A DNA stretch of 64,000 bases from Glutamicibacter uratoxydans (GTDB lineage: Bacteria > Actinomycetota > Actinomycetes > Actinomycetales > Micrococcaceae): contig NZ_BJNY01000009.1 in NCBI RefSeq assembly GCF_006539925.1, forward strand, positions 62,001 through 126,000. The letters are read 5' to 3'. Position numbers and translations under genes: made by a program. A model generated the notes under the pieces. That model did not search any database, was not told the DNA's origin, and was given only the letters and a program-made list of their open reading frames with translations. Positions 1 to 14,255 of the stretch are shown here, in pieces. Within the stretch, counting starts at the first letter, position 1; each line of letters opens with the position of its first letter.

Positions 1-162
1 CAGCGGCAGCGGATGCGCGGTATGGACGTCTTGGGCAAGATAGAGCCCGTGCAGGTGGGCGAAGCCGCCGGCCAGGTCATGGGCCTCGGGCTCGAATGCC
101 GTGATCGCCGAAAGGATCCAATCGCGCTGTTCTTCGTAGCTGCGCAAGATGCTAGCTGCCAT
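1..162 (-). CDS. moeA: MoeA-like molybdopterin molybdenumtransferase, N-terminal fragment (cut by window edge)
   Basis: Only the first 54 codons are inside the window. The segment ending DVHTAHPLPL at the left edge matches the place where MoeA proteins have 'edv.a..plP.fdnSAMDGYA'. MoeA inserts molybdate into adenylylated molybdopterin. The ATG at 162 lies 8 bases before the modC stop, an 11-base overlap that suggests translational coupling in a modABC-moeA operon. A second, complete MoeA is at 11236-12477, so this would be a paralogue. The family call rests on a short N-terminus and on context. Confidence 0.6.
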   Translation of the reverse strand, partial: MAASILRSYEEQRDWILSAITAFEPEAHDLAGGFAHLHGLYLAQDVHTAHPLPL

Positions 163-910
163 CAATGGCCTCCTTGATGCTGGTGGGATGCTGCGCGGGA
201 AGAGTGGCTACCACCGCGCGCACGAATCGGCTGGCCGGCTGCGCAAACACCTGTTCCACTTCGCCATAGGCGATGACCTTGCCGCGCTCGATGACCATCA
301 GGTCGTCGGCGAGCGCCTGGGTGTCTGCCGCGCTGTGCGAGACGACGATGGCTCCGGTGCCGCTGCGTTCAAGTTCCTCGCGCACCAGCTGGCGCATGTC
401 CACTGCCGCTTCCACGTCCAGCGAGGCGAAGGGTTCGTCGATGAGCAGGAACTTCGGCTTGGCCGCCAGTGCCCGGGCCAGGGCGATGCGCTGGCGCTGG
501 CCCCCGGAGAGGGCCGCAGGCTTGTGGTTCGCCACCTCGCCCAGGCCCAGCCGTTCAAGCCAGCGGCTGGCTGCCTGTTGGGCGTCCTGCTTGCTCATGC
601 CGCCAGCGCGGGCGCCGAAGGCGATGTTGCGGGCGGCGTCTAGGTGCGGGAACAGGTGCGCTTCCTGGCCCAGCAGTCCCACCTGGCGGCGGTGCGGCGG
701 CAGGTGGTGCCTGCCGGCGGCGAGCAGTGCGCCGTCCAGTTCGATGCGTCCCGCGTCCAGCTTTTCGATGCCGGCGATGACCTGCACGATAGTTGATTTG
801 CCTGCGCCGCTGGGCCCCATAATGGCAAGGGTCCGCCCTGCCGGCACGGTGAACTTGGCCTGGACGGCAAAGGCGGAGCGGGCCACGCTCAGCTCGACGT
901 CAAGACTCAT
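152..910 (-). CDS. modC: Molybdate ABC transporter ATP-binding protein ModC
   Basis: The 252-residue ATPase energises molybdate import with ModB and ModA. Walker A GPSGAGKST is at residues 32-40. The signature LSGGQRQRIALARALA, Walker B FLLIDEPF and the switch histidine (VVSHS) follow in order. The protein is shorter than Escherichia coli ModC and appears to lack the C-terminal molybdate-binding (TOBE/MOP) domain, as in many actinobacterial versions. I chose the ATG at 910 because it overlaps the modB stop as ATGA. The same frame stays open far upstream across modB, but that extension is a shadow of modB. Confidence 0.9.
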   Translation of the reverse strand: MSLDVELSVARSAFAVQAKFTVPAGRTLAIMGPSGAGKSTIVQVIAGIEKLDAGRIELDGALLAAGRHHLPPHRRQVGLLGQEAHLFPHLDAARNIAFGARAGGMSKQDAQQAASRWLERLGLGEVANHKPAALSGGQRQRIALARALAAKPKFLLIDEPFASLDVEAAVDMRQLVREELERSGTGAIVVSHSAADTQALADDLMVIERGKVIAYGEVEQVFAQPASRFVRAVVATLPAQHPTSIKEAIDGS

Positions 911-1713
911 TTCAGCGCTCCCGGCCGCCAGGCGCGGACGCAGACGAGGATGAGCACTGCGGTGCCCAGCAGCAGCAGCGACAGCGCAACTGCTGCATCC
1001 CGTCCTTCGCCCGCCCCGTTGAATGCCGTATAGATTGCCAGCGGCATGGTCTGGGTGATCCCCGGGGCATTGCCGGCGAAGAGCGCGGTGGCCCCGAATT
1101 CTCCAATGGCGCGGGCAAAGCACAGGATCACTCCGGCTGCCAGCCCTGGGGCCGCCATAGGCAGGGTGATGCGGGTGAGCACCGTCCAGCGTCCGGCGCC
1201 CAGGGTCGCCGCGGCCTGCTCGTACCCGAGCCCGGTGGAGCGCAGGGACCCTTCGACCGAGAGCACCAAGAAGGGCAGCGCCACGAAGCTCTGGGCAATG
1301 ACCACCGCGGTGGTGGAGAAGGGCAGCGTGTAGCCGATCAGCGACTCGACCGCTTGTCCTACGGCGCTGGTGCGCCCAAAGAGGAAGAGCAGCGCGACGC
1401 CGCCGACCATGGGCGGCAGCACCAGCGGCACCGCGACGAGCACCCGCAGCAGCTGGGCCAGGCGCGGTCCGCTTCTCGCCATAAGCACCGCCAGCGGCAC
1501 GCCGAGCACCACGCAGACCAGGCAGGCGGCAGCTCCCGTGCGCAGCGAAAGCCACAGCGCATCCAGTGCTTCCTTGCTGGTGACGTCCTGCCAGAAGGTG
1601 CCCCAGCTGGCGCGGGCCACCAGGGCGATCAGCGGGAAGATCAGCAGCGCAATTCCCAGGACTGCCGGGGCGATGGTGAATCCTGGGGCGCGGACGCCGG
1701 TGTCGCTAGCCAT
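907..1713 (-). CDS. modB: Molybdate ABC transporter permease ModB
   Basis: This 268-residue inner-membrane permease has several hydrophobic segments. It carries the EAA-type loop of ModB/CysTW permeases, readable as 'EQAAATLGAGRWTVLTRITLP' just before a conserved AAPGLAAG stretch. It forms the channel of the molybdate importer. Its start overlaps the end of modA by 8 bases and its stop overlaps modC by 4, so the three genes form one transcription unit. Sulfate or thiosulfate permeases share this fold, but the Moco neighbourhood argues for molybdate. Confidence 0.9.
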   Translation of the reverse strand: MASDTGVRAPGFTIAPAVLGIALLIFPLIALVARASWGTFWQDVTSKEALDALWLSLRTGAAACLVCVVLGVPLAVLMARSGPRLAQLLRVLVAVPLVLPPMVGGVALLFLFGRTSAVGQAVESLIGYTLPFSTTAVVIAQSFVALPFLVLSVEGSLRSTGLGYEQAAATLGAGRWTVLTRITLPMAAPGLAAGVILCFARAIGEFGATALFAGNAPGITQTMPLAIYTAFNGAGEGRDAAVALSLLLLGTAVLILVCVRAWRPGALK

Positions 1714-2500
1714 GTGCAGAACTCGAAGCGGCGCCGAAGCCGTGGTCTTTCAGGATCTTCTGTCCTTCGTCGGAGAGGACGAAGTCGACAAATTCCTGGG
1801 CGCCTGGATTGTCGGTCAAAGCGGTGATGGGATAGGAGTTGACTACCTGGCCCGCCCCTTCGGGGACGATGGATTTCACCTTGTCTTCGCCGATCACGTC
1901 GGTGGCATAGACCAGGCCGGCGTCTGCTTCACCGGCGGCGACCTTCTGCAGCACCGCCGTGACATTCTGCTCCTGGCTGGCAGGCGTGACCTTGACGCCC
2001 TGGTTGTCCAAAAGTGTGGTGGATGCGGCCCCGCAGGGAACCTTTGGCGCGCACAGCACCGTGGTCGCCTTTGACAGGTCTGCCAGCGACTTCACATTGC
2101 CGGGATTGTTGGCGGGCACCGCGATCACCAGGGTATTGGTGGCGAAGACCTGCGGGTTCTTTCCCAGCCCCGCCGCGGTGACGGTAGCCATGTTCTTCTC
2201 ATCGGCGGAGGCGAAGACGTCCACCTTGGCGCCTTCAACGATCTGGGTGGCCAAGGTAGAAGAACCGTCATAGGAAATGGTGGAGATTTTCGTCTCCGGG
2301 TGTTCGGCCTGGAACTTCTTGCCGATCTCGTCAAAGGATCGCTGCAGCGAGGCAGCTGCGGAGATGGTGATAGTATCCGCCGGCTGGGACTTCCCCGTGG
2401 AAGCTGTGTCCGAGGCAGTGCCAGCGCAGCCTGCAAGTGTCAGAGCAGCAGCAGCCACAACGGCGCAGGACCGCACAAGGTGCGAAGGGCGAATGCGCAT
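1706..2500 (-). CDS. modA: Molybdate-binding lipoprotein ModA
   Basis: The 264-residue periplasmic-type solute-binding protein delivers molybdate to ModBC. The N-terminus has arginines, a hydrophobic stretch and a lipobox LAGC, with the modified cysteine at residue 25. The mature part begins with 'ITISAAASLQRSFDEIGKKF', the typical ModA opening, and contains the oxyanion-binding serines in SAAAS and YDGSST. It is first in modABC-moeA and is transcribed away from moaA across a 112-base intergenic region. Confidence 0.92.
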   Translation of the reverse strand: MRIRPSHLVRSCAVVAAAALTLAGCAGTASDTASTGKSQPADTITISAAASLQRSFDEIGKKFQAEHPETKISTISYDGSSTLATQIVEGAKVDVFASADEKNMATVTAAGLGKNPQVFATNTLVIAVPANNPGNVKSLADLSKATTVLCAPKVPCGAASTTLLDNQGVKVTPASQEQNVTAVLQKVAAGEADAGLVYATDVIGEDKVKSIVPEGAGQVVNSYPITALTDNPGAQEFVDFVLSDEGQKILKDHGFGAASSSAHG

Positions 2501-2612
2501 TGAATCTCCTAGTGGGTTGCTTCACTTGCCATGCTACAGGCGCGTTTAGCTGGGACTGCCGATATGACCCGCTAATATATTACTTTCTGGGATGACGCGT
2601 TACTGTTAAAGC
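2501..2612. promoter_or_regulatory. Divergent modA/moaA control region; moaA probably leaderless
   Basis: This 112-base region must hold both promoters. A TACTGT hexamer at 2601-2606 lies 6 bases before the moaA ATG, and no Shine-Dalgarno sequence precedes that ATG. Both facts fit leaderless transcription starting at the initiation codon. A 10-base palindrome TAATATATTA is at 2573-2582 in an AT-rich patch. It could be a regulator site, but I see no good match to the long ModE palindrome. The promoter reading is inference. Confidence 0.4.
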
Positions 2613-3653
2613 ATGAACACGCAAAATGTGTCAGCCATCACCGATGCTCGACGCAGGCCATTGCACGACCTGCGCATTTCGGTCACGGACCGGTGCAACT
2701 TCCGCTGTGTGTACTGCATGCCCAAAGAAATCTTCGGGCGCGACTTCCAGTTCCGCGAGCGGTCCGAGCTGCTGACCTTTGAAGAGATTGAACGCCTGGC
2801 GCGCGTCTCCGTATCCCTTGGCGTGCACAAGCTGCGCATTACCGGCGGCGAGCCGCTGCTGCGCCGCGGCATCGTTGACCTCGTAGGCATGCTTTCTCAA
2901 CTGAAAACCCCCGAGGGGCGCCCAGTTGACCTGGCCATGACCACCAATGGTTCGGCGCTGCCGCACCTTGCCCAGGATTTGATAGACGCCGGTCTTAAGC
3001 GCGTGACGATCTCCCTCGATTCGTTGGATGACGAACGCTTCAAGGCGATCAATGATGTGAACTTCCCGGTGTCCCGCGTGCTGAAGGCCATCGAGGTTGC
3101 CAGCGAAGTGGGCCTTGGCCCGGTCAAGATCAACACCGTGGTCAAGAAGGGCGTCAACGATGACGAGATCCTGACCCTTGCCGAGCATTTCCGCGGCACC
3201 GGACAGATCCTGCGCTTCATCGAGTACATGGATGTGGGCACGACCAACGGGTGGAAGCTCGACGAGGTGTTGCCTTCCACCGAGGTAGTTTCCATGATCA
3301 ACGCGAAGTGGGAACTTGAACCGGTCACCAAGACTGAGCCCGGCGAAACTGCCAACCGCTGGCGGTACAAGGACGGCGGCGGCGAGATCGGCGTGATTTC
3401 CAGCGTCACCAACGCCTTCTGCGGCAACTGCTCGCGGGCCCGCGTCTCTGCCGAAGGACAGTTGTTCACCTGCCTCTTCGCCGGATCCGGTTTGGATCTG
3501 CGCGCCCTGATGCGCGACGGAGCCGACGACGAGAAGTTGGCCGAGGTACTTTCCGGGCACTGGCGCAAGCGCGATGACAACTACTCGGAGCTGCGTGCGG
3601 CGCTGACTCCAGGCAATCGCAAACGCATCGAGATGTCGTACATCGGCGGCTGA
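2613..3653 (+). CDS. moaA: GTP 3',8-cyclase MoaA (radical SAM)
   Basis: This 346-residue enzyme catalyses the first step of molybdenum cofactor synthesis, turning GTP into 3',8-cyclo-7,8-dihydro-GTP. The radical-SAM cluster cysteines are C28, C32 and C35 in the CxxxCxxC motif. The SAM-binding ITGGEPLLR segment follows. The second 4Fe-4S cluster is held by the C-terminal CGNC...C cysteines (AFCGNCSRAR, then TCLF). The protein ends in the GG doublet needed for MoaA activity. It faces away from modA, and its partners moaE/D/C lie 6 kb downstream beyond an accessory stretch. Confidence 0.96.
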   Translation: MNTQNVSAITDARRRPLHDLRISVTDRCNFRCVYCMPKEIFGRDFQFRERSELLTFEEIERLARVSVSLGVHKLRITGGEPLLRRGIVDLVGMLSQLKTPEGRPVDLAMTTNGSALPHLAQDLIDAGLKRVTISLDSLDDERFKAINDVNFPVSRVLKAIEVASEVGLGPVKINTVVKKGVNDDEILTLAEHFRGTGQILRFIEYMDVGTTNGWKLDEVLPSTEVVSMINAKWELEPVTKTEPGETANRWRYKDGGGEIGVISSVTNAFCGNCSRARVSAEGQLFTCLFAGSGLDLRALMRDGADDEKLAEVLSGHWRKRDDNYSELRAALTPGNRKRIEMSYIGG

Positions 3654-3662
3654 CCGCGTCAT

Positions 3663-4532
3663 TTATTCCTGATCGTCCTCAAACCAGCATTCTTCCGAGC
3701 CGGGCAGGCTTGGATGGTAGGGAACCTTGAACCATTGCGCCCAATTCTCTGGACGGTGCGGCCATTGTTCCACCAGCCACTTCGGAGGCTTGTTCGTGAA
3801 ACCGAGGATCACGCTGCGTGCTTTCAGATCCCAGAATGAAGTCCCCACATCGAATAGCCGCACCCCGGTCAAATATAGGAGGTTGAAGGGCTGAATCTGC
3901 GACGCCTGCACGAGGCCCTTCACCGAGCTTGCCCAACGGATGCTGACATGTGGCGGCCAACCTCCGGCAGGCGCGTCGACGTGGAGGGTTCCCGCTTGGT
4001 CGATGTTCAGCTCATCCAGCCCTGAAACCTTGTCCCAAGCTTTCGGACAGATACATTTTTTCGTTCGGAAAAGGGTCAGCTGCTCAAGGTTGGCACGAAT
4101 GTTGAGCAGTGTGTCCAGTGGCGAACTTTCAATGAACAGATCATTGAGTTTTGGAGCGCTGACCAAAACGTCGCTCACTTTTGGGTAATAGCCGACGATT
4201 AGCCGTCTCAGATCGAGCAATGAGGCATCTATCGGGCGGGACGCAAAGAGCTTCCCTTGAAGGTGCGCGAAAAGAAGTTTCAAATTGGTCAATGTTTCTA
4301 GGCCTGCCAAGTCAGCTGTGGCAAGCGTGCAGTCGTCGTACTCGTTGAGATCCAGGCTCAGCGCTCCAACGTCCGGGTGTGCGGCCCTGATTTCATCGAT
4401 GAAGCTGCCGTTCTCCGGGACGCGCCGGATGCGGACATGGAGCACTTTCTCCTTGAGGCCGTCGCCAAGTGGCAGCGTCTCCTTTTGGACGTTCCAGATC
4501 AGGCCGGAAGCCGATTCGTTCCTGGTCGACAT
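3663..4532 (-). CDS. Hypothetical protein with leucine-rich-repeat-like segments
   Basis: I do not recognise this 289-residue protein. Residues roughly 70-190 contain spaced leucine/isoleucine units (LETLTNLKLL, LLDLRRLIVGYY, APKLNDLFIE, NLEQLTLFRT, LDELNID). They resemble irregular leucine-rich repeats of the kind found in single-gene accessory or immunity proteins. There is no signal peptide or membrane segment. The C-terminus is rich in tryptophan and acidic residues. The ATG at 4532 is preceded by a G-rich GTGGGG. The gene converges on moaA with a 9-base gap and opens the accessory stretch that interrupts the Moco genes. Confidence 0.6.
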   Translation of the reverse strand: MSTRNESASGLIWNVQKETLPLGDGLKEKVLHVRIRRVPENGSFIDEIRAAHPDVGALSLDLNEYDDCTLATADLAGLETLTNLKLLFAHLQGKLFASRPIDASLLDLRRLIVGYYPKVSDVLVSAPKLNDLFIESSPLDTLLNIRANLEQLTLFRTKKCICPKAWDKVSGLDELNIDQAGTLHVDAPAGGWPPHVSIRWASSVKGLVQASQIQPFNLLYLTGVRLFDVGTSFWDLKARSVILGFTNKPPKWLVEQWPHRPENWAQWFKVPYHPSLPGSEECWFEDDQE

Positions 4533-4620
4533 TGAAACCCCACATCTAATCGCACGCCAGCCGGACGAGGCAGTGACTTTGAATTATCACCTAATCCCCG
4601 CCCGGCGTGAAGAACATGAC

Positions 4621-5169
4621 TTAGCCCATGGACTTGGCGCCATCCAGCGATTCACGGATGATGTCTGCGTGGCCCGCGTGCTGGGTGGTTTCGGCAATGA
4701 TGTGAAGCAGGGTGCGGCGGTTGCTCCATTCGGTGTCGACGAACCATGGCGCCTTCGGCAGGTCGTGGCGTTCATCAAGATCGATCTCGGCCAGCATGGA
4801 ATCCGTGAGGGCTGCGATGCGCTCATACTCAGCAAGCAGGCCTTCGAGGGTTTCTTCTGGTCCCATACGGAAAGCGTTGGCGAAGGCCTCAAGTGCTTCA
4901 GGTGGCATGTTGAAGAAGTCGACGCCGTCCCAGGACATGGCGCTGCGGCCCTGGATGATGAAGTCCTGCCACTGCTTCTCAACCTCGGACACATGCTTGA
5001 TCAGGCCGCCAAGGGTCAGTTCGCTGTCGGTGGTGCGGATGCGGCCCTGGTCGTCGTTCAGGTCCCGGACGGTGAAGCGCAGGAAGTGGCGGGCGTTGGT
5101 CAATGCCTGGAACAGGTCGAAGCGTTCGCCGGTCAGTTCGGTGGTGGTTGGTGCCATCGTGGTGCTCAT
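4621..5169 (-). CDS. DinB/DUF664 family putative metal-dependent protein
   Basis: This 182-residue four-helix-bundle protein fits the DinB superfamily, which includes mycothiol- and bacillithiol-dependent transferases. It has a first-helix LIKHVSEVEKQW histidine (H59) and a later LLHIIAETTQHAGHADI segment (H156, H164, H167) that would bind the metal. The biochemical substrate is unknown. I chose the ATG at 5169, which has a strong AGAGGAG Shine-Dalgarno, over the longer in-frame start at 5268. It is divergent from the WYL regulator at 5254, which probably controls it. Confidence 0.8.
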   Translation of the reverse strand: MSTTMAPTTTELTGERFDLFQALTNARHFLRFTVRDLNDDQGRIRTTDSELTLGGLIKHVSEVEKQWQDFIIQGRSAMSWDGVDFFNMPPEALEAFANAFRMGPEETLEGLLAEYERIAALTDSMLAEIDLDERHDLPKAPWFVDTEWSNRRTLLHIIAETTQHAGHADIIRESLDGAKSMG

Positions 5170-5212
5170 CGTTCTCTCCTCTGTTGAGCTGATGGAACAA
5201 GAGTAAAGTTCA

Positions 5213-5233
5213 TAGGTGACAGTTTTTGTCCTA
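5213..5233. promoter_or_regulatory. Candidate operator between DinB and WYL genes
   Basis: An imperfect inverted repeat, TAGGTGACA then TGTCCTA across a GTTTT centre, sits midway in the 84-base divergent region. Its GACA/TGTC core is the likely binding site for the WYL regulator encoded at 5254. The function is inferred from position and symmetry only. Confidence 0.35.
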
Positions 5234-5253
5234 AATCGGAGAAGAATATTCTC

Positions 5254-6210
5254 ATGAGCACGAGCCAACGATTCATACGGTTATTGTCGCTTCTGCAGAC
5301 CCACCGGTATTGGGCCGGAGAGGAGCTGGCGCAGCGCTTGGACATCTCGCTGCGCACCCTGCGCCGCGATGGGGACCGCCTGCGGGACTTGGGCTATCCA
5401 GTCCAGGCCGAGCGCGGGGTGGGAGGCGGCTACCAGCTTGCCGCAGGCGCCGCACTGCCTCCGCTGGTGCTCGATGACCAGGAGGCAGTGGCTTTGGTGG
5501 TCGGGCTGCAGTCTGCAGTCAACCAGTCGGACAGCGTTCTGGCGGAGGCCAGCCTGCGGGCGCTGTCAAAGGTTATTCCGGTGCTACCGGGGAACCTGCG
5601 CAAGCAGGCCCAGGCGCTGGCAAGCTCAACGGTCGGCCTGGGGCCAGAAAGAACTTCTGAGCAGCTGGTCGATCCGCAGGTCCTAGTTGTTTTTGCCCAG
5701 GGGTGCAGGGACTTAGAACGCGTTGCCTTCGACTATGTTGACGCCCGCGGCAATGAAACCAGCAGGCGGGTGGAACCGGCCAAGCTGGTGCGTGTAGGGC
5801 AGCGCTACTATCTGGTGGCCTATGACCTGGACCGGCAGGACTGGCGCAGCTTCCGCGTCGACCGCGCAGCGAACGCCTCCGCGCGAGGCCTGCGCTTTGC
5901 AGCCCGGAGCATTCCCGGCAATGACGCAGCGGCATTTGTCCGCGCAGGCCTGCAGGGTGAACGAACCTATGAATTCAGCGCGCTCGTGCACGCCCCAGCG
6001 CAGCAGGTTGATGCGGCGGTGGGACGCTGGTTCAAGGTACAGGCGAATGACGGCGAAACCTGCACGGTATATGGAACCTCTGACGACCTGCGATGGGCGG
6101 CGTTTGCACTTGCACTGTGCGAAGCAAAAGTCAGCGACACGCATCCTTCTGAATTGCGAAATCTAGTCACGGCTTGGTCTTCGAACTTATCTCCAAGCTC
6201 CAAAAACTAA
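5254..6210 (+). CDS. WYL-domain transcriptional regulator (YafY type)
   Basis: The 318-residue regulator begins with a winged helix (HTH_11/DeoR type, residues about 1-60: RLLSLLQTHRYWAGEELAQRL, then ISLRTLRRDGDRLRDLGYPV). A WYL ligand-sensing domain follows (about 140-225, with VGQRYYLVAYD and FRVDRA) and then a C-terminal extension domain. Such proteins sense ligands such as nucleic acids or small molecules and often sit divergent from a DinB-like gene, as here. The ATG is preceded by GGAG about 12 bases upstream. It marks the right end of normal-GC sequence before the AT-rich gene at 6487. Confidence 0.87.
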   Translation: MSTSQRFIRLLSLLQTHRYWAGEELAQRLDISLRTLRRDGDRLRDLGYPVQAERGVGGGYQLAAGAALPPLVLDDQEAVALVVGLQSAVNQSDSVLAEASLRALSKVIPVLPGNLRKQAQALASSTVGLGPERTSEQLVDPQVLVVFAQGCRDLERVAFDYVDARGNETSRRVEPAKLVRVGQRYYLVAYDLDRQDWRSFRVDRAANASARGLRFAARSIPGNDAAAFVRAGLQGERTYEFSALVHAPAQQVDAAVGRWFKVQANDGETCTVYGTSDDLRWAAFALALCEAKVSDTHPSELRNLVTAWSSNLSPSSKN

Positions 6211-6486
6211 AGCGATTCCTGTTCTAGCTGTAATAGCAAACAAAATGCGGGCTCATATTGCCCAGCCACCATCCGTGGCAGATGGACCTACCCCGGTTTC
6301 AACCATAGTTTCGGCGATTCAAATCACCTAACCTAGACCCAGCATAGTTCACCAAAATTGAACTGCCATGACGATCCCCGAGACTCAGACACAAAAATAC
6401 CTTGAGAATCAGAGATTTTTGATATAACCGGCTAAACTTATCGTATTTAAGATTAGTCAACCTAAAACGACTGCAGGGAAAAAATA

Positions 6487-8916
6487 ATGACAAAATTTAA
6501 TCGACCTACACTTCGAGTTGTGCAGAACAGCGATGAAGCCTTCAACGCATTTCAGACAAATTACAACAATATCGCAGAAGGTATGATTCCGACCGATTCA
6601 TGGAATGATTTACGTTTACAAGTACCTCAAATTATTGAACAGAGTGTTCATGCAATTCAGCGGGAGTTAGACACAGGCGTTGATTTATGGGATGTTATCG
6701 AAGTCCTGCGGAGAATGATAGCACCAGCAGATCTAGGGGAACACAAGGAAAGCATCAATACAACCCTTCCCGCTATAGTTGAAGTTGTAGCCTTAATAGG
6801 TATTTCAATCGATCCGAAGGAAATCAATTTACCGCAGGAACAGATCGATGCAGGTCCATCGATACCAACCATCATCGATGCCGCAACACGAATTGTGACA
6901 ACCGCGCAGTGGGTTGCCATAGCCTCTGTAAACGATAATCATCTTGGTCAAGCAGCCGAATTAACAGGACTTCTCCGGACTTTTGAAGTGTCCGTACGAG
7001 GACGGAACTATCTTTCAATTTCACGGAAAGTTCTTGATGAAATTTTCTCATCAGAAGCAATTGAGCAACTGGTCCGATCCAACGTGGGCTATACGCCATC
7101 AGATATTTCGCAGCTTTGGGAGGCGATCCAGAAGGAGCGTATTGAAACTCAAACACTCCTAGAAGAACGTATTGGTGAATTTATACAAATATCTTCTACG
7201 GGAGAACCTTTATCTGACGCGCAAATAACAGAAGCAAGAGAAGTTGTAGGCAAGCTTCTACTGGAACCCGGACAAGGAATTTCATTCAGTATTGATGAGA
7301 TACTTTCTCATACCAATTTATCCACCTCTGTCATCACGTCAATACTGGAATCGTTTTCTATCGAAACAACTGGCTTGCGCGCGGTTGAAGCTTGCCAAAA
7401 ATTTGTTCAAGGGGAAAATTTACTGGCAGGAAAAGGCATGCTGCGTCGGCAGGATCGCTACTTGCCGATTGGCGATCCGCTCCCGCACGACTTTATCCGC
7501 CCTCTTATTGAATCACGGTTGAAAACATCAAATAAGCCTTGGAACCGATACAGAAAACATCGTGACTCTTGGACTGAAAAAACTGCTGGTCAGTTACTCT
7601 CTAAATTACTTGGTATAAACAATCCAACCTACGAGTCTTTGGAGTACAGATTTCCTGAGTCAGATTCCCTGCCTTACGATCTTTCAAAAAATTCGACCAA
7701 TTCACGAACAAACACTAAAGATACGGAAGCCGATGCTCTATTTATTATCGATGACATCGCTATTTGTGTTGAGGTGAAGGCTGGATCAATCACAGAAAAA
7801 GCTCGTGCAGGTAATGTTCAACGAGTTGAAGCTGATCTTCGAAAGACAATCGGCGAAGCTGCCAGTCAGGCAGAACGTCTAGAAGATCTTATATTGAAAC
7901 ATCAGGGTCTATGGACACCGGCCAACTGTTGGATTGATTTATCCGGAATTCGTGAAATCCATACCATAATTGTATGCCTTGACGATTGGGGACCGTTAGC
8001 AATTGCAACAGACGCTTTAGTTAGAGCCAATATCATTACGTCCCAGTCAATCCCGTGGCTCGTGTCAATTCATGATCTCTTCACGATCGCTACTTTCATG
8101 GATAGTCCCTCCGATTTCCTGACCTATCTACGGCGTCGCACTGACCCAGCGGCCTCTCGACTTTTACTTGCTGGCGATGAACTAGATCTAGTCATGTGGT
8201 TCATGGGTGGCGGACTATATTTTGTGCCCGATCCTTTTGAAGTACGCAAGAAGAACCCAACGATCCCGCGGCCGAGACAAGCACAAAGAGATGAATTCAA
8301 GAACAGCAATGTCCCGACTCAAGTATCGACGCATACAGATGCCCTCGACGCATGGATGTACTTTATCGAAGGTCAGACATCTATTGAAGCTGATCGTCCC
8401 AGACGCGATCATCAAAGGCACGTAGCCATGCTAATTCAGCATCTGGAAGACTCGAAAGAACGTGGGTGGCTCAGAACGGGTGCTGATCTCGCTGGCCTTG
8501 CGCACGAGGCTGAGCTCACTATCAGTGATTATATGATCCAACTAATGCATTCCACTCTGAAAGATGGCTGCTTTCACACTTCATTCATGAATTTTCCCGA
8601 TTTAAGCGGAAATTTTGGCTTGTTTCTTGGAACTCTTCCTATTGGTGAAAGCATGGAGAAAGTCAAAATCGATATAAGGAAGTATGCGCAGCTCAAAAAG
8701 CACCAGCTTCACCTCGGCCGTTCCCTAGCAATTATCATCAATGTCAGCGGCCATATAGTCTGGAGCGAATATGACAACTCACTAAACGTGGATGCCCCTG
8801 AGCTGGACCGTGAGATCATCGAACGAAGACTCCTTAGTGCAAATCAAATGCAGGCACTAAATTCTATTGCTCCTAAGAATAAGAAACGCAAGAAGCGTCA
8901 AAAACGCAAACGCTAA
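6487..8916 (+). CDS. AT-rich 809-residue protein with a PD-(D/E)XK-like nuclease core; function unknown
   Basis: I do not recognise this protein as a named family. Residues 1-400 are largely helical. Residues 412-432 read TEADALFIIDDIAICVEVKAG, giving E414-x-D416 followed 13 residues later by E429-x-K431. This is the beta-hairpin acidic/ExK signature of PD-(D/E)XK nucleases. A helix rich in Q, E and R follows (about 440-465). The last 13 residues are almost all K/R, possibly for nucleic-acid binding. Start choice: the ATG follows AGGGAA at 7 bases. Base composition is very different from its neighbours (20 G/C in the 60 bases 6601-6660), so it was probably acquired horizontally. It stands alone with no methylase or helicase partner. 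A defence or restriction role is inference. Confidence 0.75.
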   Translation: MTKFNRPTLRVVQNSDEAFNAFQTNYNNIAEGMIPTDSWNDLRLQVPQIIEQSVHAIQRELDTGVDLWDVIEVLRRMIAPADLGEHKESINTTLPAIVEVVALIGISIDPKEINLPQEQIDAGPSIPTIIDAATRIVTTAQWVAIASVNDNHLGQAAELTGLLRTFEVSVRGRNYLSISRKVLDEIFSSEAIEQLVRSNVGYTPSDISQLWEAIQKERIETQTLLEERIGEFIQISSTGEPLSDAQITEAREVVGKLLLEPGQGISFSIDEILSHTNLSTSVITSILESFSIETTGLRAVEACQKFVQGENLLAGKGMLRRQDRYLPIGDPLPHDFIRPLIESRLKTSNKPWNRYRKHRDSWTEKTAGQLLSKLLGINNPTYESLEYRFPESDSLPYDLSKNSTNSRTNTKDTEADALFIIDDIAICVEVKAGSITEKARAGNVQRVEADLRKTIGEAASQAERLEDLILKHQGLWTPANCWIDLSGIREIHTIIVCLDDWGPLAIATDALVRANIITSQSIPWLVSIHDLFTIATFMDSPSDFLTYLRRRTDPAASRLLLAGDELDLVMWFMGGGLYFVPDPFEVRKKNPTIPRPRQAQRDEFKNSNVPTQVSTHTDALDAWMYFIEGQTSIEADRPRRDHQRHVAMLIQHLEDSKERGWLRTGADLAGLAHEAELTISDYMIQLMHSTLKDGCFHTSFMNFPDLSGNFGLFLGTLPIGESMEKVKIDIRKYAQLKKHQLHLGRSLAIIINVSGHIVWSEYDNSLNVDAPELDREIIERRLLSANQMQALNSIAPKNKKRKKRQKRKR

Positions 8917-9361
8917 TAAATCGGTATAGATTTGCCCACTATATATTCTGTCCACGACTTAGGCCCTGTCGATGAAAATCACCGCCTCGGGCGAATGTGC
9001 TCCAAACGCATGCTTAATTGGAATCAATTTTCCGATCAGATTACTGGAAATAAAATCATAGAAGTCTTGGAAACACGCGTCACATTCTGATGCGAAGGTT
9101 CGAACGATCGGCCTATGTGCAAATTGTCCTTCTTCAGACAATTTAAATCTTCGCGGTTGAATAGCGACAATGCTCTTTGCGATATTAAAACCAATAAACG
9201 GCCTCATTATAAGATAGTGCGACCGGATCATTTCGATTCGATTCAAAGAATTGTCATCTTTTGAGATTGGCCGTGTTCTCGATGATGTGACTATAGCCAA
9301 CGATCAAAGGGTTTAATCATCACATTCTTTTTGCAGACATGCACGGACAACCCCGACGTTA
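8917..9361. other. AT-rich spacer after the nuclease-like gene
   Basis: Between the nuclease-like gene and moaE lie 445 bases that remain AT-rich up to about 9330 and then return to the GC-rich local composition. The only candidate coding content is the small reverse ORF at 8959-9300. I see no transposase, tRNA, direct repeat or clear terminator that would mark how the insertion arose. Confidence 0.5.
8959..9300 (-). CDS. Doubtful small hypothetical protein
   Basis: A 113-residue reverse ORF with AT-rich composition like the preceding gene. It would start at a TTG directly after an in-frame stop, with no Shine-Dalgarno; the ATG that opens MIRSHYLIM is an alternative start. Its composition (aromatic and charged residues, ASECDACFQDFYDFI near the middle) is protein-like, but there is no motif I recognise. 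It could be a real gene convergent with 6487-8916, a remnant, or chance. Similarity searching would decide. Confidence 0.3.
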   Translation of the reverse strand: MAIVTSSRTRPISKDDNSLNRIEMIRSHYLIMRPFIGFNIAKSIVAIQPRRFKLSEEGQFAHRPIVRTFASECDACFQDFYDFISSNLIGKLIPIKHAFGAHSPEAVIFIDRA

Positions 9362-9769
9362 CTAGAGCCCCACCCATTCGGAGCTGCCAGAGGTGAAGTG
9401 CTGGCGCTTCCAGATCGGCACCTCGGCTTTGATGCGCTCAACCAGGTTCTCAATCGCGTCGAAAGCTTCCTTGCGGTGCGCCGCAGCGCTGGCGGCTACC
9501 AATGCGGCATCGCCGATCGCCAGCGGGCCGACGCGGTGGACGGCCGAAAGCTTAAGCCCGGTGCGGGCTTCTTCCTCCGCAATGATGTTCTCCAGGAACT
9601 TCTGCGCCTCGGGATGGTGCGAATAGTCGAGGGCATCCACCGACTGTCCGCCATCGTGATTGCGGATGATCCCGTGGAACATCACTACCGCGCCAGCGGT
9701 GTCGCTCTGCACGGCGGCGCGGACCGCCTCCTCATCGATCGGCTGGTCGGTGATCAGTGCGTAGCTCAA
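9362..9769 (-). CDS. moaE: Molybdopterin synthase catalytic subunit MoaE
   Basis: The 135-residue MoaE pairs with MoaD thiocarboxylate to put the dithiolene sulfurs into precursor Z. Family landmarks are visible: GAVVMFHGIIRNHDGG near residue 30, LDYSHHPEA, VHRVGPLAIGDAALVAASAAAHRKEAFDA, and the catalytic-lysine region IKAEVPIWKRQ. The start overlaps the stop of the MoeB-rhodanese gene (ATGA at 9766-9769), so the two are co-translated. Confidence 0.96.
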   Translation of the reverse strand: MSYALITDQPIDEEAVRAAVQSDTAGAVVMFHGIIRNHDGGQSVDALDYSHHPEAQKFLENIIAEEEARTGLKLSAVHRVGPLAIGDAALVAASAAAHRKEAFDAIENLVERIKAEVPIWKRQHFTSGSSEWVGL

Positions 9770-10932
9770 TTCATTCCTCTTTTCGAGATGGTCAGTTCAG
9801 GGGCAAGCGCCGCAACAGCGGGCACTCCCCCGGGCACATAGGTGGTTTTGACGCCGCGGCGGGCCAAGAGCTGTGCGGCGCGGATGGCCCGCGGACCCTT
9901 GGCGCAGTAGATCGTCAGGGTTTGCGGCAGCTGCGGCAGGTCTTGGCCTGCATCGATGGCGGCCTCCAGTTGCGGCAGCGGCAGGAAGATGGAGCCCGGG
10001 ATGCTCAGTTCATCTCGTTCGTCCTGGTTGCGCACGTCCAAAAGCACCGGAGGATCATCCGAGCGCAGGGCGGCCACGAGGTCTTCGGGGACCAGCTGTT
10101 CCGGTTCCGGGAGAGAACCGGCGCAGAACAACTCGTAATCGATCAATTCGGTAATCGGCTCGGCACTGGGGTCGCGGGAGAATTCGAGTGTGCGGGTGCT
10201 GGCGGCCAGCGCGTCATAGACCAGGACCTTGCCCACCAGCGGGGTGCCGATGCCGGTGATCAGCTTCATCGCCTCGGTGGCAAGCAGCGAGCCAATGGTG
10301 CCGCACAACCCCGGAAGCACACCTCCGGCGGCGCAGTCCGGGATGGTGCCCGGAGCCGGGGGCACAGGGAACAGGTCGCGGTAGCCAGGGCCGTGTTCAT
10401 GCCATGCCACCGATACCTGGCCATGGTGTTGCAAGATGGAGCCCCAGATCAGCGGAATGCCGGTCAGCTGGGCCGCGTCGTTGCTCAGGTAGCGGGTGGG
10501 GAAGTTGTCGCTGCCGTCGATCACCAGATCGTACTGGCTGAAGATCTGAAGTGCATTGCTCGAATCCACGCGCAGGGTGTGCTCGATGATGTTCACGCCG
10601 GGATCCAGAGCCCGCGCGGCGGCCGCGAGAGACGCGGTCTTTGCCATGCCGATGCGTTCGGTGGTGTGGGTGACCTGGCGGTGCAGGTTGGACAATTCCA
10701 CCACGTCGTCGTCGATGATGCCGATCGTGCCGACCCCGGAGCCTACAAGGTAGGGAATGCTGGCACTGCCCAGTCCGCCGGCGCCGAGAACCAGCACCCG
10801 CGCGGCGGCCAAGCGGCGCTGCGACTCAAGCCCGAATCCGGGCAGCGCAAGCTGGCGCTGGGCCCTGGCCAGCTGCTGGTCGCTGAGCGCCTCCGCCGGC
10901 GCAACCAGCGGCTCGAAAACGCGTTCACTCAT
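9766..10932 (-). CDS. moeB: MoeB/ThiF adenylyltransferase fused to a rhodanese domain (MoeBR)
   Basis: This 388-residue protein would adenylylate the MoaD C-terminus and then transfer sulfur to it. Residues 1-250 form the E1-like domain: GAGGLG at 50-55, the DDDVVELSNLHRQ segment around 75-85, and a candidate catalytic C200 in IPDCAAGG. Residues about 275-388 are a rhodanese domain with active-site C343 in IYCAKGPRA. The layout matches MOCS3-type proteins, and the paired CxxC zinc motif of E. coli MoeB is not seen. I prefer the ATG at 10932 over the TTG at 10953. It is divergent from moaD. A dual role in thiamine or cysteine sulfur transfer is possible. Confidence 0.9.
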   Translation of the reverse strand: MSERVFEPLVAPAEALSDQQLARAQRQLALPGFGLESQRRLAAARVLVLGAGGLGSASIPYLVGSGVGTIGIIDDDVVELSNLHRQVTHTTERIGMAKTASLAAAARALDPGVNIIEHTLRVDSSNALQIFSQYDLVIDGSDNFPTRYLSNDAAQLTGIPLIWGSILQHHGQVSVAWHEHGPGYRDLFPVPPAPGTIPDCAAGGVLPGLCGTIGSLLATEAMKLITGIGTPLVGKVLVYDALAASTRTLEFSRDPSAEPITELIDYELFCAGSLPEPEQLVPEDLVAALRSDDPPVLLDVRNQDERDELSIPGSIFLPLPQLEAAIDAGQDLPQLPQTLTIYCAKGPRAIRAAQLLARRGVKTTYVPGGVPAVAALAPELTISKRGMN

Positions 10933-10979
10933 AGTCTGAATCCTACGCGTCAAGCCTTCGAAGGCGATAGCATGAAGCC

Positions 10980-11231
10980 ATGTCGCAGATTACACTACGC
11001 TACTTCGCTGCCGCGGCGGCCGCAGCAGGAACCGAAGAGGAATCCTGGCCGCGCCCCGAAACGCTGGCCCAGCTGCGTACTTCACTGGCCGATGCCTATG
11101 GCCCAGACATGGCGGCAGTATTACGCGCCGGAAGCTTCCTGATCAACGGCGTCGTCCGCAAAGACGACGGAGCCCTGGGCAGCGACGACTCGCTGACCGT
11201 CGACGTCCTGCCGCCTTTCGCCGGAGGATAA
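10980..11231 (+). CDS. moaD: Molybdopterin synthase sulfur carrier subunit MoaD
   Basis: An 83-residue ubiquitin-fold protein starting ITLRYFAAAAAAAG and ending in FAGG. The terminal GG is the site of thiocarboxylation by the MoeB-rhodanese encoded divergently at 10932. With MoaE it forms molybdopterin synthase. It is first in the operon moaD-moeA-moaC-mog, with only 4 bases to moeA. Confidence 0.93.
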   Translation: MSQITLRYFAAAAAAAGTEEESWPRPETLAQLRTSLADAYGPDMAAVLRAGSFLINGVVRKDDGALGSDDSLTVDVLPPFAGG

Positions 11232-11235
11232 GCAC

Positions 11236-12477
11236 GTGGCCTGCACCCTGGAAAACCACCGCCGCGAGGTCAGCGGCCTGCTGGCGGAGAAGTTCGCGTC
11301 GCTGCCTGCACAGGTGCTGCCGGTGGCTTCCGCACAGCTGCTAGGCAGGATCACCGCAGCGGATCTTTCTGCCGCGCTGCCCATTCCCGCGTTCACCAAT
11401 TCCCAGATGGACGGCTATGCCGCGCGCTCGGCAGACCTGGCCCAGGCCAGCGAACAGCATCCGGTGAGCCTGCCCCTGGGGCTGACCGCCGCCGCTGGCG
11501 ACCCGCAGATCACCCTTGAACCCGGCACCGTCAGCCCGGTGATGACCGGGGCCATGATTCCGCTCGGCGCCGATACGGTGATTCCGGTGGAGCACAGCGT
11601 CGAGGGCGCCTTCGGCACCCTGGTCCGCGCCGGCGAAGGAACACCGTCCGGCAAGGCAACGTTTACCGCGCCAGGACCAGTAGGACGCTTCATCCGCCCT
11701 GCAGGCCAAGACCTCGCCGCCGGGGCGTTGGTGGCAGCCGCGGGCACTCGCCTGACCCCGACGATGATCGGTGCGATGGCAGCCAGCGGCATCACCGACG
11801 TTCCTGTAGTGTCCCAGCCGCGGGTGCTGGTGTGCACCACGGGCAATGAGCTGGGAGATTCGGAGCGCTCGGGCTTGGGCGCCGGGCAGATACCCGATGC
11901 CAATTCCCCCATGCTCGCAGCCGTGCTGCGCGGATATGGGGCGCTGGTAGACACCGAACGCTTCCCCGACGATGTTTCCGCCTTGCATGATGCGCTGCTG
12001 AAGACTGCTGCAGATTTTGACCTGATCATCACCGTGGGCGGGATCAGCGCCGGCGCCTACGAAGTAGTCAAGGACACCTTGGCTCCGATGGGCGCAGACT
12101 TCCATTCGGTGGCAATGCAGCCCGGAGGCCCCCAGGGCCTCGGCTCCATCGGATCCACCCCGGTGCTCTGCTTCCCCGGAAATCCGGTCAGCTCGTTCCT
12201 GTCCCTTGAATTGTTCCTTGCGCCGGTGCTGCGTGCAGTAGCTGGAATGCCGGAGCCCCTGCCCGAGCGTGCAGAACTTGCCCAGAGCGTAGCTTCACCG
12301 GCAAACAAGCATCAGGTGCGCCGTGCCATGCTGCAGGACGGAAAAATCCACGTTCTGGATCCCGGTTCGCATATGGTGCATGACTTGGCCCGGGCCGATG
12401 CCCTGGTCCACATTCCGGTGGGCACGGAAGAACTTGCCGCCGGATCAATGATCGAATTTTGGAGAATGCATGTCTGA
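11236..12477 (+). CDS. moeA: Molybdopterin molybdenumtransferase MoeA
   Basis: This 413-residue enzyme inserts molybdate into AMP-molybdopterin. Landmarks in order: PIPAFTNSQMDGYAARS near residue 55, GAMIPLGADTVIPVEHS, RPAGQDLAAGALVAAAGTRLTP, TTGNELG, GQIPDANSPML, TVGGISAGAYEVVKD and CFPGNPVSSFLS. The GTG start follows GGAGGATAAGCAC, which begins inside the end of moaD. It overlaps moaC by 8 bases. A second MoeA-like gene lies at the left edge of the window. Confidence 0.95.
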   Translation: MACTLENHRREVSGLLAEKFASLPAQVLPVASAQLLGRITAADLSAALPIPAFTNSQMDGYAARSADLAQASEQHPVSLPLGLTAAAGDPQITLEPGTVSPVMTGAMIPLGADTVIPVEHSVEGAFGTLVRAGEGTPSGKATFTAPGPVGRFIRPAGQDLAAGALVAAAGTRLTPTMIGAMAASGITDVPVVSQPRVLVCTTGNELGDSERSGLGAGQIPDANSPMLAAVLRGYGALVDTERFPDDVSALHDALLKTAADFDLIITVGGISAGAYEVVKDTLAPMGADFHSVAMQPGGPQGLGSIGSTPVLCFPGNPVSSFLSLELFLAPVLRAVAGMPEPLPERAELAQSVASPANKHQVRRAMLQDGKIHVLDPGSHMVHDLARADALVHIPVGTEELAAGSMIEFWRMHV

Positions 12478-12946
12478 GAAGCTCACCCACCTGCGTGAAG
12501 ACGGCAGCGCCCACATGGTCGACGTCAGCGACAAGGCGGTGACCAAGCGAGTTGCCACAGCACAGGCGGTATTCAACACCCGTGAAGATGTTGTGCCAAT
12601 GCTCATGACCGGCAATCTGCCCAAGGGCGAAGCACTGGGCACCGCGCGCATTGCCGGCATCATGGCCGCCAAGCGCACCTGGGAACTGGTTCCGCTGTGC
12701 CACCCTCTGCCGATTTCAAAAGTGTCGGTGGACTTCACTGCCCAACAATCCTCGGTCATCGTCACCGCCCAGGTCACGACCAAAGGAGTGACAGGTGTAG
12801 AGATGGAAGCCCTGACCGCGGCCAGCGTTGCCGCGCTGACCCTCTACGACATGGTCAAGGCCGTAGACAAGAGCGCTACCGTCACCGATATCCAGGTACT
12901 GGCGAAGTCAGGCGGCAAAAGCGGGGATTGGGAACGTGGCCAGTAG
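12470..12946 (+). CDS. moaC: Cyclic pyranopterin monophosphate synthase MoaC
   Basis: The 158-residue enzyme converts MoaA's cyclised product into cyclic pyranopterin monophosphate. Typical motifs are visible: MVDVSDKAVTKRVATAQA at the N-terminus, KGEALGTARIAGIMAAKRTWELVPLCHPLPIS in the middle, and GVEMEALTAASVAALTLYDMVKAVD, with the catalytic lysine near the conserved IQVLAKSGGKSG end. It overlaps moeA upstream and mog downstream. Confidence 0.96.
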   Translation: MSEKLTHLREDGSAHMVDVSDKAVTKRVATAQAVFNTREDVVPMLMTGNLPKGEALGTARIAGIMAAKRTWELVPLCHPLPISKVSVDFTAQQSSVIVTAQVTTKGVTGVEMEALTAASVAALTLYDMVKAVDKSATVTDIQVLAKSGGKSGDWERGQ

Positions 12947-13427
12947 GAGCGCCTGCGTCATCGTCGCTTCCACCAGCGCAGCCGCTGGAACGGCACAGGA
13001 CACCACCGGTCCGCGGATTGCCGCGTGGCTGGCCGAGCGCGGTTTTACCGTGACCGGTCCGGTGGTCGTGGCCGACGGGCAGCCGGTGCGCCGAGCCGTC
13101 GAGGCTGCCCTAGCCGCAGGGGCCGACCTCATCTTGAGCACGGGGGGCACAGGAGTCTCCCCCGATGACCAAACCCCGGAAATGATCCAGCCGCTGTTGG
13201 AGGTTGAGCTGCCTGGCATCATCGAGGCGATCCGCCGACGCGGCGAGGCAGCGACCGCAATGTCGATCATTACCCGCGGGGTGGCCGGCTTTGCCGGAAA
13301 CACTTTGCTCGCAACCCTCCCCGGGTCCACCGGCGGAGTCAAGGACGGGCTGGCTGTCCTAGACCCGATCTGGGAGCATCTGCTCAATCAGCGCACCGGG
13401 CAGCAGGGACACGGCAAGCGCAGCTAG
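12936..13427 (+). CDS. mog: Molybdopterin adenylyltransferase, MogA/MoaB family
   Basis: A 163-residue protein that adenylylates molybdopterin ahead of MoeA. It shows LILSTGGTGVSPDDQTPE, the family's GGTG substrate loop, and the LPGSTGGVKDGL segment near the C-terminus. The GTG start at 12936 overlaps moaC by 11 bases. It ends the operon. MoaB and MogA cannot be separated by eye; the actinobacterial context supports the same function for either. Confidence 0.92.
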   Translation: MASRSACVIVASTSAAAGTAQDTTGPRIAAWLAERGFTVTGPVVVADGQPVRRAVEAALAAGADLILSTGGTGVSPDDQTPEMIQPLLEVELPGIIEAIRRRGEAATAMSIITRGVAGFAGNTLLATLPGSTGGVKDGLAVLDPIWEHLLNQRTGQQGHGKRS

Positions 13428-13502
13428 CTTCTCGGGAGCGGCGACACCCGCCCAATCTCATCCATACAGGCTGAAGCACTTCTTGCCTTCGGCTATTCCT
13501 TA

Positions 13503-13547
13503 TTTCGCCATACAAAGAATGGATGACAATCGGGCGAAAGTTTCGCC
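13503..13547. promoter_or_regulatory. Repeated TTTCGCC element upstream of the lipoprotein gene
   Basis: GGCGAAA-G-TTTCGCC at 13533-13547 is a perfect inverted repeat with a single central base, and an extra TTTCGCC copy is at 13503-13509. The arrangement is typical of an operator for the gene starting at 13656. The regulator is unknown. Confidence 0.3.
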
Positions 13548-13655
13548 AGAGCTCCCAACTGAATATATGGTTTCATCAAGTCACAGCCGATTTTCGCATT
13601 GAGAATCCCACGATCTTGGCGACCGCGTGTAATTCATTATTCAAGGAGCATCCTG

Positions 13656-14255
13656 GTGAAGAAAACTATTCTGGCAACCGTTGGGGTCGCCCTTGCCGCC
13701 GGGCTTGTTTCCTGCACGAATTCCGGGATCGGAGATAATCCCGCACCGAAGTTGAAGCAAGATCCTCAGTCCCAGCAAGCTTCCGCGTCCTGCGACCAGC
13801 CTCGTGCGGCACTCAAGAACAGCGCCACGGAATCTCCGAAGATTCTCAGAGTCGACAGGTTCCAAGACCCCCATAATTTCGACATTATTTTCGCGCAAGA
13901 AGCTAATTCTTCGCTGCGGTGGAGCCCGTCCCCCAACTGGGACAATATGAAAGAAGTCATGCGTGCGGTGAACGAAGTTTCACCTCAGAGTCTCGACGAG
14001 AGCGAGCATAGAGTCCCTGACTCAAGCACTCTCACGATTGAAAGCGGCAAGCAGTCGATTAATTATCTGAGCTATTTTGCTTCGACCCCGGCGACCTATG
14101 AATTCAGCGTCAGCTGTCTGAACGGTCCCGAAACCGAGTACAAGTTCACATACTCGACGTGGGGCCTAGATGAATCGGGACTTCTCGACTGTGACGTGAA
14201 ATTGGAATTAGACGCTCCCAAAATCGCTGATGAGGTCATCAAAAAATACTGCTGA
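13656..14255 (+). CDS. Secreted lipoprotein of unknown function
   Basis: A 199-residue exported protein. The N-terminus VKKTILATVGVALAAGLVSC is a lipoprotein signal with the lipobox cysteine at residue 20. The mature part has two further cysteine pairs in reach of disulfides (SCDQP, SCLNG, LLDCD and the final KKYC) and no known domain I can name. I chose the GTG at 13656 because AAGGAG lies 9 bases upstream and the signal peptide begins there; the longer frame to 13599 lacks both. It stands alone between Moco genes and a converging gntP. Confidence 0.75.
   Translation: MKKTILATVGVALAAGLVSCTNSGIGDNPAPKLKQDPQSQQASASCDQPRAALKNSATESPKILRVDRFQDPHNFDIIFAQEANSSLRWSPSPNWDNMKEVMRAVNEVSPQSLDESEHRVPDSSTLTIESGKQSINYLSYFASTPATYEFSVSCLNGPETEYKFTYSTWGLDESGLLDCDVKLELDAPKIADEVIKKYC

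Follow-up and report, generated by a model that had tools for sequence, protein, structure and literature searches.

A gene at 6487-8916 (forward strand) of the 64,000-nucleotide stretch of Glutamicibacter uratoxydans DNA analysed here (the window; contig NZ_BJNY01000009.1, positions 62,001 to 126,000) probably encodes a stand-alone defence nuclease of an undescribed family, the middle of which (residues ~123-557) is likely to be distantly homologous to the C-terminal part of Upx. On the best reading its targets are phages or mobile DNA, defence being a candidate activity. The features computed for this analysis are the gene itself, a fold prediction, a set of invariant residues, a patchy distribution, mobile and defence-gene neighbourhoods, and a statistical link to Upx.

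The open reading frame begins with ATG, is intact and specifies a protein of 809 residues, P0001. Its G+C content is 44.8% (39.6% at the third codon position), compared with 62.8% in the window outside 6211-9361, and an equal or lower G+C content is found in 4 of 616 sliding segments of gene length across the window. An earlier note on this DNA had pointed to this unusual composition, and the 20 G/C that it counted within 6601-6660 were found exactly. AlphaFold2 modelled the full chain with high confidence scores (pLDDT 90.1, pTM 0.90). In the model, residues 1-237 (6487-7197) form a mostly helical N-terminal region, a proposed sensor or scaffold, and residues 244-290 (7216-7356) form a helix-turn-helix-like stretch (helices 244-259, 261-265, 269-273 and 280-289) that may contact nucleic acid and falls within the part of P0001 aligned to Upx. 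The PD-(D/E)XK core spans residues 349-531 (7531-8079) and is followed by a C-terminal alpha/beta extension at residues 560-793 (8164-8865), outside the Upx-aligned stretch. The helical part joined to a nuclease domain that the earlier note had inferred is seen in the model, where a sensor role for the helices is a putative one. By sequence composition, residues 795-809 (8869-8913) make up the lysine/arginine-rich tail that the note had also remarked on: 11 of the last 15 residues are lysine or arginine, and at least 7 such residues occur within the last 20 in 48 of the 55 homologues. All of these parts are encoded on the forward strand.

The predicted core consists of helix 349-375, strands 382-390, 410-421 and 424-431, helix 444-472 and strand 490-497. 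This alpha-beta-beta-beta-alpha-beta order is that of PD-(D/E)XK nucleases; the second strand carries D416 and the third E429-x-K431, and the nuclease domain modelled alone gave the same core (pLDDT 90.7); structure prediction thus places such a core around E429 and K431, as the earlier note had expected. Conservation was evaluated in alignment A3, which contains P0001 and 55 of the 57 homologues with a frame of at least 650 aa (L078 and L087 were omitted as near copies); starts of homologues were picked by length, and the scripted gene calls are crude. E364 (7576-7578), D416 (7732-7734), E429 (7771-7773), K431 (7777-7779) and Q461 (7867-7869) are unchanged in all 56 aligned sequences, and the 26 invariant columns include E364, E414, D416, E429, K431, Q461 and R464. 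The E414-x-D416 and E429-x-K431 motifs first noticed in the single sequence are accordingly identical throughout an alignment whose mean column identity is 36%. That P0001 is a decayed or inactive nuclease-fold protein retained for binding has a near-negligible probability, given that its five putative catalytic residues persist in 56 of 56 sequences; this alignment excludes seven of the 64 loci, in which the frame is split or short.

Structural comparisons point in the same direction. With the domain alone, the top Foldseek rows were R2 retrotransposon proteins (E 0.0029), the small subunit of R.BspD6I (0.0055) and VC1899 (0.018), and the search also returned Nt.BspD6I, bunyavirus endonucleases, Cdn1, Cap4, McrBC and Can2. 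We take the named top rows to be, or to contain, PD-(D/E)XK nucleases; the best E value of 0.0029 is weak, and TMq is at most 0.39 in the top rows. The full-chain search placed Cas4, Can2, VC1899 and splicing endonucleases near E 0.1, amid unrelated rows such as ABC transporters. None of the three Foldseek searches gave a match at E ≤ 0.001. The assignment of the nuclease fold thus follows mainly from the confident model and the invariant site, with which the weak fold matches are consistent.

By sequence comparison, the protein family appears to have no description in the libraries searched (PADLOC-DB 2.0.0, Pfam and NCBIfam). The one Pfam match of P0001 was NERD (PF08378; E 0.046, 14.7 bits, below the gathering cut-off of 22.1) at residues 406-469, the strands that bear D416 and E429-x-K431, and NERD was matched at E up to 0.1 by 3 of the 56 family members. 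The NCBIfam search of P0001 gave no match, the PADLOC scan up to E 10 gave only Csx20 (E 0.011), and neither the PADLOC nor the Pfam scan matched PDC-S02 or YhcG. A sequence search of P0001 for solved relatives found none at E ≤ 1, and searches from alignments A3 and A4 (54 rows, near copies L050 and L076 removed) gave weak and implausible rows only. No description of the family was recognised in the open-access literature, subscription papers and preprints being mostly outside its scope. The earlier note could not match the protein to a named family; this stands insofar as no library family scored above its cut-off, but a remote link to Upx did emerge (see below). Two Streptomyces homologues (L016:11491-13956 and L019:11623-14124) carry the annotation 'preprotein translocase subunit SecA', which is most likely a misnomer.

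The family is patchily distributed. Homologues were found in 4 of 18 genomes of the genus, 11 of 295 of the taxonomic family, 10 of 394 of the class and 9 of 396 of the phylum, counts that take in the window's own genome and some partial matches. The scan of named records yielded 64 loci, all with actinobacterial record titles, and the nearest named relative, from Glutamicibacter ardleyensis, is 56% identical. Matches also occur in 15 plasmid records, including those of Streptomyces, Rhodococcus, Gordonia and Arthrobacter, the Bacillota Salimicrobium and Exiguobacterium, and haloarchaea, the haloarchaeal matches being short and weak. The gene is lower in G+C than its flanks in 52 of 55 homologues. 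In a quick tree, the eight Micrococcaceae rows are scattered and need six label changes, at least five of them forced by starred branches, and all 16 families taken together require 29 changes, against a minimum of 15; such counts, as the tool itself cautions, are not proof of transfer. Homologues from Kocuria (a metagenome bin) and Microbacterium are 90.6% identical, about as alike as MoaE proteins within Glutamicibacter, which are 70-91% identical to that of the window. Composition together with the patchy and scattered distribution supports the horizontal acquisition suggested in the earlier note. A phage origin was considered and rejected, as no match was found in 50,697 phage records at E ≤ 0.1; relatives on viral contigs were likewise sought with one peptide pattern, and none were present among its 142 matches.

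The gene lies between two genes that we take, from inspection by eye, to encode a WYL/YafY-type regulator (5254-6210, forward strand) and MoaE (moaE, 9362-9769, reverse strand), each matched in all 18 genomes of the genus. The intervening segment (6211-9361) is AT-rich cargo of 44.2% G+C. In 14 Glutamicibacter genomes, the window's included, a single stretch contains both flanks, 251 to 8,754 bp apart; the gap is ~34 kb in G075, the flanks are far apart in G157, and they are on different contigs in G112 and G238. Ten hand-picked proteins were scanned as hotspot cargo, and two were clear. In G220 the gap holds, at L174:3327-9076, an intact-looking 1,398-aa Avs2 (913.6 bits) and an adjoining gene with a weak SIR2-like match (36.9 bits); in G023 it holds a PDC-S02/YhcG nuclease (366.5 bits) that is perhaps truncated, because the match begins at profile position 76. 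Weaker hints were an SMC/LmuB-like ATPase in G075 and an HNH protein in G246. The G095 gap, read by eye, contains moved molybdenum-cofactor genes, and in G220 degraded extra copies of parts of moaE and of the end of the regulator gene lie beside the Avs2 and SIR2-like genes. The gap between moaE and the regulator gene (window 6211-9361, L172-L186) is a variable site of the genus, and in several Glutamicibacter species its cargo apparently includes defence genes. Repeats framing the insert were only short and chance-like, no duplicated ends were seen by eye in the gap sequences listed, and no RNA families were found in window positions 1-14000. Adjacency to molybdenum-cofactor genes was rejected as a functional hint, because those genes are the flanks of a variable gap.

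These data bear on whether P0001 could be a housekeeping or DNA-repair nuclease, for which the nuclease fold and the adjoining molybdenum-cofactor genes could be cited. We judge this very improbable: the gene is missing in 14 of the 18 genus genomes and in 284 of the 295 family genomes, whereas its flanking genes are in 18 of 18, and it is AT-rich here, as its homologues are relative to their own flanks. Homologues are accessory genes and do not belong to housekeeping operons, a placement that would have counted against the earlier note.

When neighbours were clustered across 80 loci, a set with some duplicates of one genome, no partner recurred, in line with the solitary gene described in the earlier note; apart from the family itself, a tyrosine integrase forms the commonest cluster (14 of 80 loci), and a resolvase occurs at 6 of 80. 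The next open reading frame after the nuclease gene, an AT-rich frame of 113 aa (8959-9300, reverse strand), was considered as a partner and rejected, its tblastn matches among the fetched loci being only copies of the same locus. Several homologues adjoin known or candidate defence genes. On the Gordonia plasmid pGKT2 (L015:8384-20559), the homologue lies between HmaA (1297.6 bits) and HmaB (996.8 bits), followed by HmaC (861.6 bits). The paper on PADLOC (PMC8565338) put Hma forward as a candidate system, and the pGKT2 homologue is a candidate extra nuclease gene of this operon. In Arthrobacter hankyongi, a type IIG restriction enzyme gene (2267.9 bits) overlaps the homologue from upstream and ends where the homologue begins. 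A Tmn-like gene (161.5 bits) lies downstream of a homologue, and AriA-like (121.3 bits), DitA (107.2 bits) and PifA-like (184.8 bits) genes are neighbours elsewhere.

The enrichment was evaluated at 44 of the 64 loci, where removal of 6 genes over 1,000 aa (4 of them scanned separately) and of 12 at random reduced 167 neighbour genes to 149. At E ≤ 1e-15 these 149 matched 69 PADLOC models, compared with 7 models for 131 control genes (from 340 genes in 20 stretches at round-number positions in 14 carrier genomes), the control not being matched genome by genome; the tally is not a gene count, because one protein can match many overlapping models. Among the 25 neighbour-matched models listed are GajA, GajB, AriA, ThsB, PifA, REase_II, PDC-M02A, PDC-M36A and PDC-S66. 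A separate scan of 10 hand-picked neighbours gave matches for five, two of these to mad3 only; mad3 was discounted as a sign of defence, since it matches three test and two control proteins. With an unmatched control and overlapping models, the 69 versus 7 models, the Hma operon and the hotspot cargo together mark a neighbourhood rich in defence genes, which lends indirect support to the candidate defence gene of the earlier note.

Two other roles were weighed against this context. P0001 may be an orphan or type IV-like restriction enzyme whose cutting depends on DNA sequence or modification, so that it would respond to marks on the DNA and not to a signal of infection. R.BspD6I, Nt.BspD6I and McrBC entries are among the nearest folds of its nuclease domain, one homologue overlaps the type IIG gene, and another sits within the Hma operon, adjacent to the methylase; yet no methylase recurs among the neighbours, and Pfam found no SRA, EVE or other reader domain among the 56 members, so we regard such an enzyme as unlikely. 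The gene may instead serve the mobile elements that carry it, in upkeep of plasmids or integrative elements, DNA processing or exclusion of competing elements. The 15 plasmid records, the integrase and resolvase neighbours, and Arthrobacter p2MP, where the homologue comes after mobC and a relaxase gene, would fit this role. It is distinctly unlikely in our view, since there is no constant plasmid partner and the gene here is alone in a chromosomal gap that lacks an integrase or transfer gene; exclusion of competitors would, moreover, overlap with a defence function.

Evidence for the relationship to Upx came from structure and from profiles. PMC10855318 includes Upx among nuclease-type antiphage systems, citing Gao et al. 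2020; another literature match to the name, PMC12691588, deals with the unrelated UpxY capsule loci and was set aside. The first-ranked Foldseek row for the full chain was 9wuf, 'Cryo-EM structure of Upx' (E 1.3e-3, probability 0.99, 616 columns), with a poor superposition (TMq 0.24, rmsd 12.4), and 9wuf was absent from the best 50 rows listed for the nuclease-only search. A 1,243-aa Upx-like protein found via PADLOC model PDLC02221 matches 9wuf at E 2.7e-23, and it was aligned with three relatives (A7) or with these and a fourth, shorter one (A8). With match columns taken from the first sequence, comparison of A3 with A7 gave probability 83.0, E 9e-6 and score 59.3, in a colinear alignment of P0001 residues 123-557 with residues 823-1232 of Upx-like L194. 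D416, E429 and K431 align on Upx D1103, E1118 and K1120, none of which varies among the 5 Upx-like rows; for E364, Upx has no strictly conserved equivalent. One hundred column shuffles scored at most 28.6 with A3 and 20 unrelated profiles at most 22.4, and a 66-row extended family profile gave probabilities of 95.0, 89.2 and 77.0 (scores 78.9, 64.5 and 56.8) with three Upx profiles.

This link depends on the profile, because single sequences, the tool default and one leave-one-out comparison fail to support it. By the tool default, the probability was 11.9, with an overlapping region in the same order; A7 anchored on other rows scored 35.8-39.2; and leave-one-out scores were 25.4-50.4, the lowest without L196. 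Scored singly against the family, Upx sequences did no better than unrelated controls, cross-HMM searches gave borderline results (best E 0.002 and 0.12), and the nuclease domain alone gave no credible match to Upx. Homology of the P0001 core to the Upx core is likely, and we hold it with good confidence. P0001 itself is not an Upx, because model PDLC02221 has no match in P0001 (up to E 10) or the window's genome (E ≤ 10) and the N-terminal region is lacking; no upstream gene able to supply that region recurs in the homologue loci. A shorter Upx-like protein of 787 aa, P0002, is encoded on a Sinorhizobium plasmid (L197:3417-5780); over 98% of its length it shares ~30% identity with a protein encoded in small Salmonella plasmid records. 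In genome G1110 (L200), the nuclease end of a 997-aa frame matches Upx (E 1.1e-9); this is perhaps a further branch of Upx-like nucleases.

Taken together, these results suggest how a defence nuclease of this kind may act; its catalysis, substrate, trigger and protective effect are what we infer from them. P0001 has a short helical start in place of the Upx N-terminal region, plus a C-terminal alpha/beta domain and basic tail of its own. The helical and C-terminal parts would detect some feature of phage or mobile DNA entering the cell, or of the products of its replication or transcription; the helix-turn-helix and basic tail would hold nucleic acid; and a metal-dependent site of E364, D416, E429 and K431, assisted by Q461, would cut it. 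A broader and rather doubtful extension is that the Upx nuclease core exists free-standing as a single-protein defence system across Actinomycetota, with matches reaching Bacillota and haloarchaea. The Upx N-terminal part would then be an exchangeable add-on, and the P0001 family would be a second and compact arrangement, in which a C-terminal domain and basic tail peculiar to the family trigger that nuclease. If the assignment is correct, it adds to Actinomycetota a defence family unnamed by PADLOC-DB 2.0.0, Pfam and NCBIfam, provides a shorter natural relative for studying the Upx nuclease, and marks the Glutamicibacter gap as a place to seek further defence genes.

Among known systems, Upx is a single gene like that of P0001 and probably shares with it a helical part, a helix-turn-helix-like stretch and a PD-(D/E)XK nuclease. 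Upx proteins are ~1,240-1,270 aa long, in contrast to 809 aa for P0001, which has no counterpart of the Upx N-terminal region and whose C-terminal alpha/beta domain is its own; a basic tail is present in P0001 and in Upx-like L194, unlike the other Upx-like rows shown. The Can2/Card1-type, VC1899 and Cap4 nucleases, found among the rows of the fold searches, have the PD-(D/E)XK core in common with P0001. These nucleases carry cyclic-nucleotide sensor (CARF/SAVED) parts, named for Cap4 in its structure title, whereas none was detected in P0001. YhcG (PDC-S02 in PADLOC) is likewise a solitary PD-(D/E)XK protein and occupies the same hotspot in genome G023.
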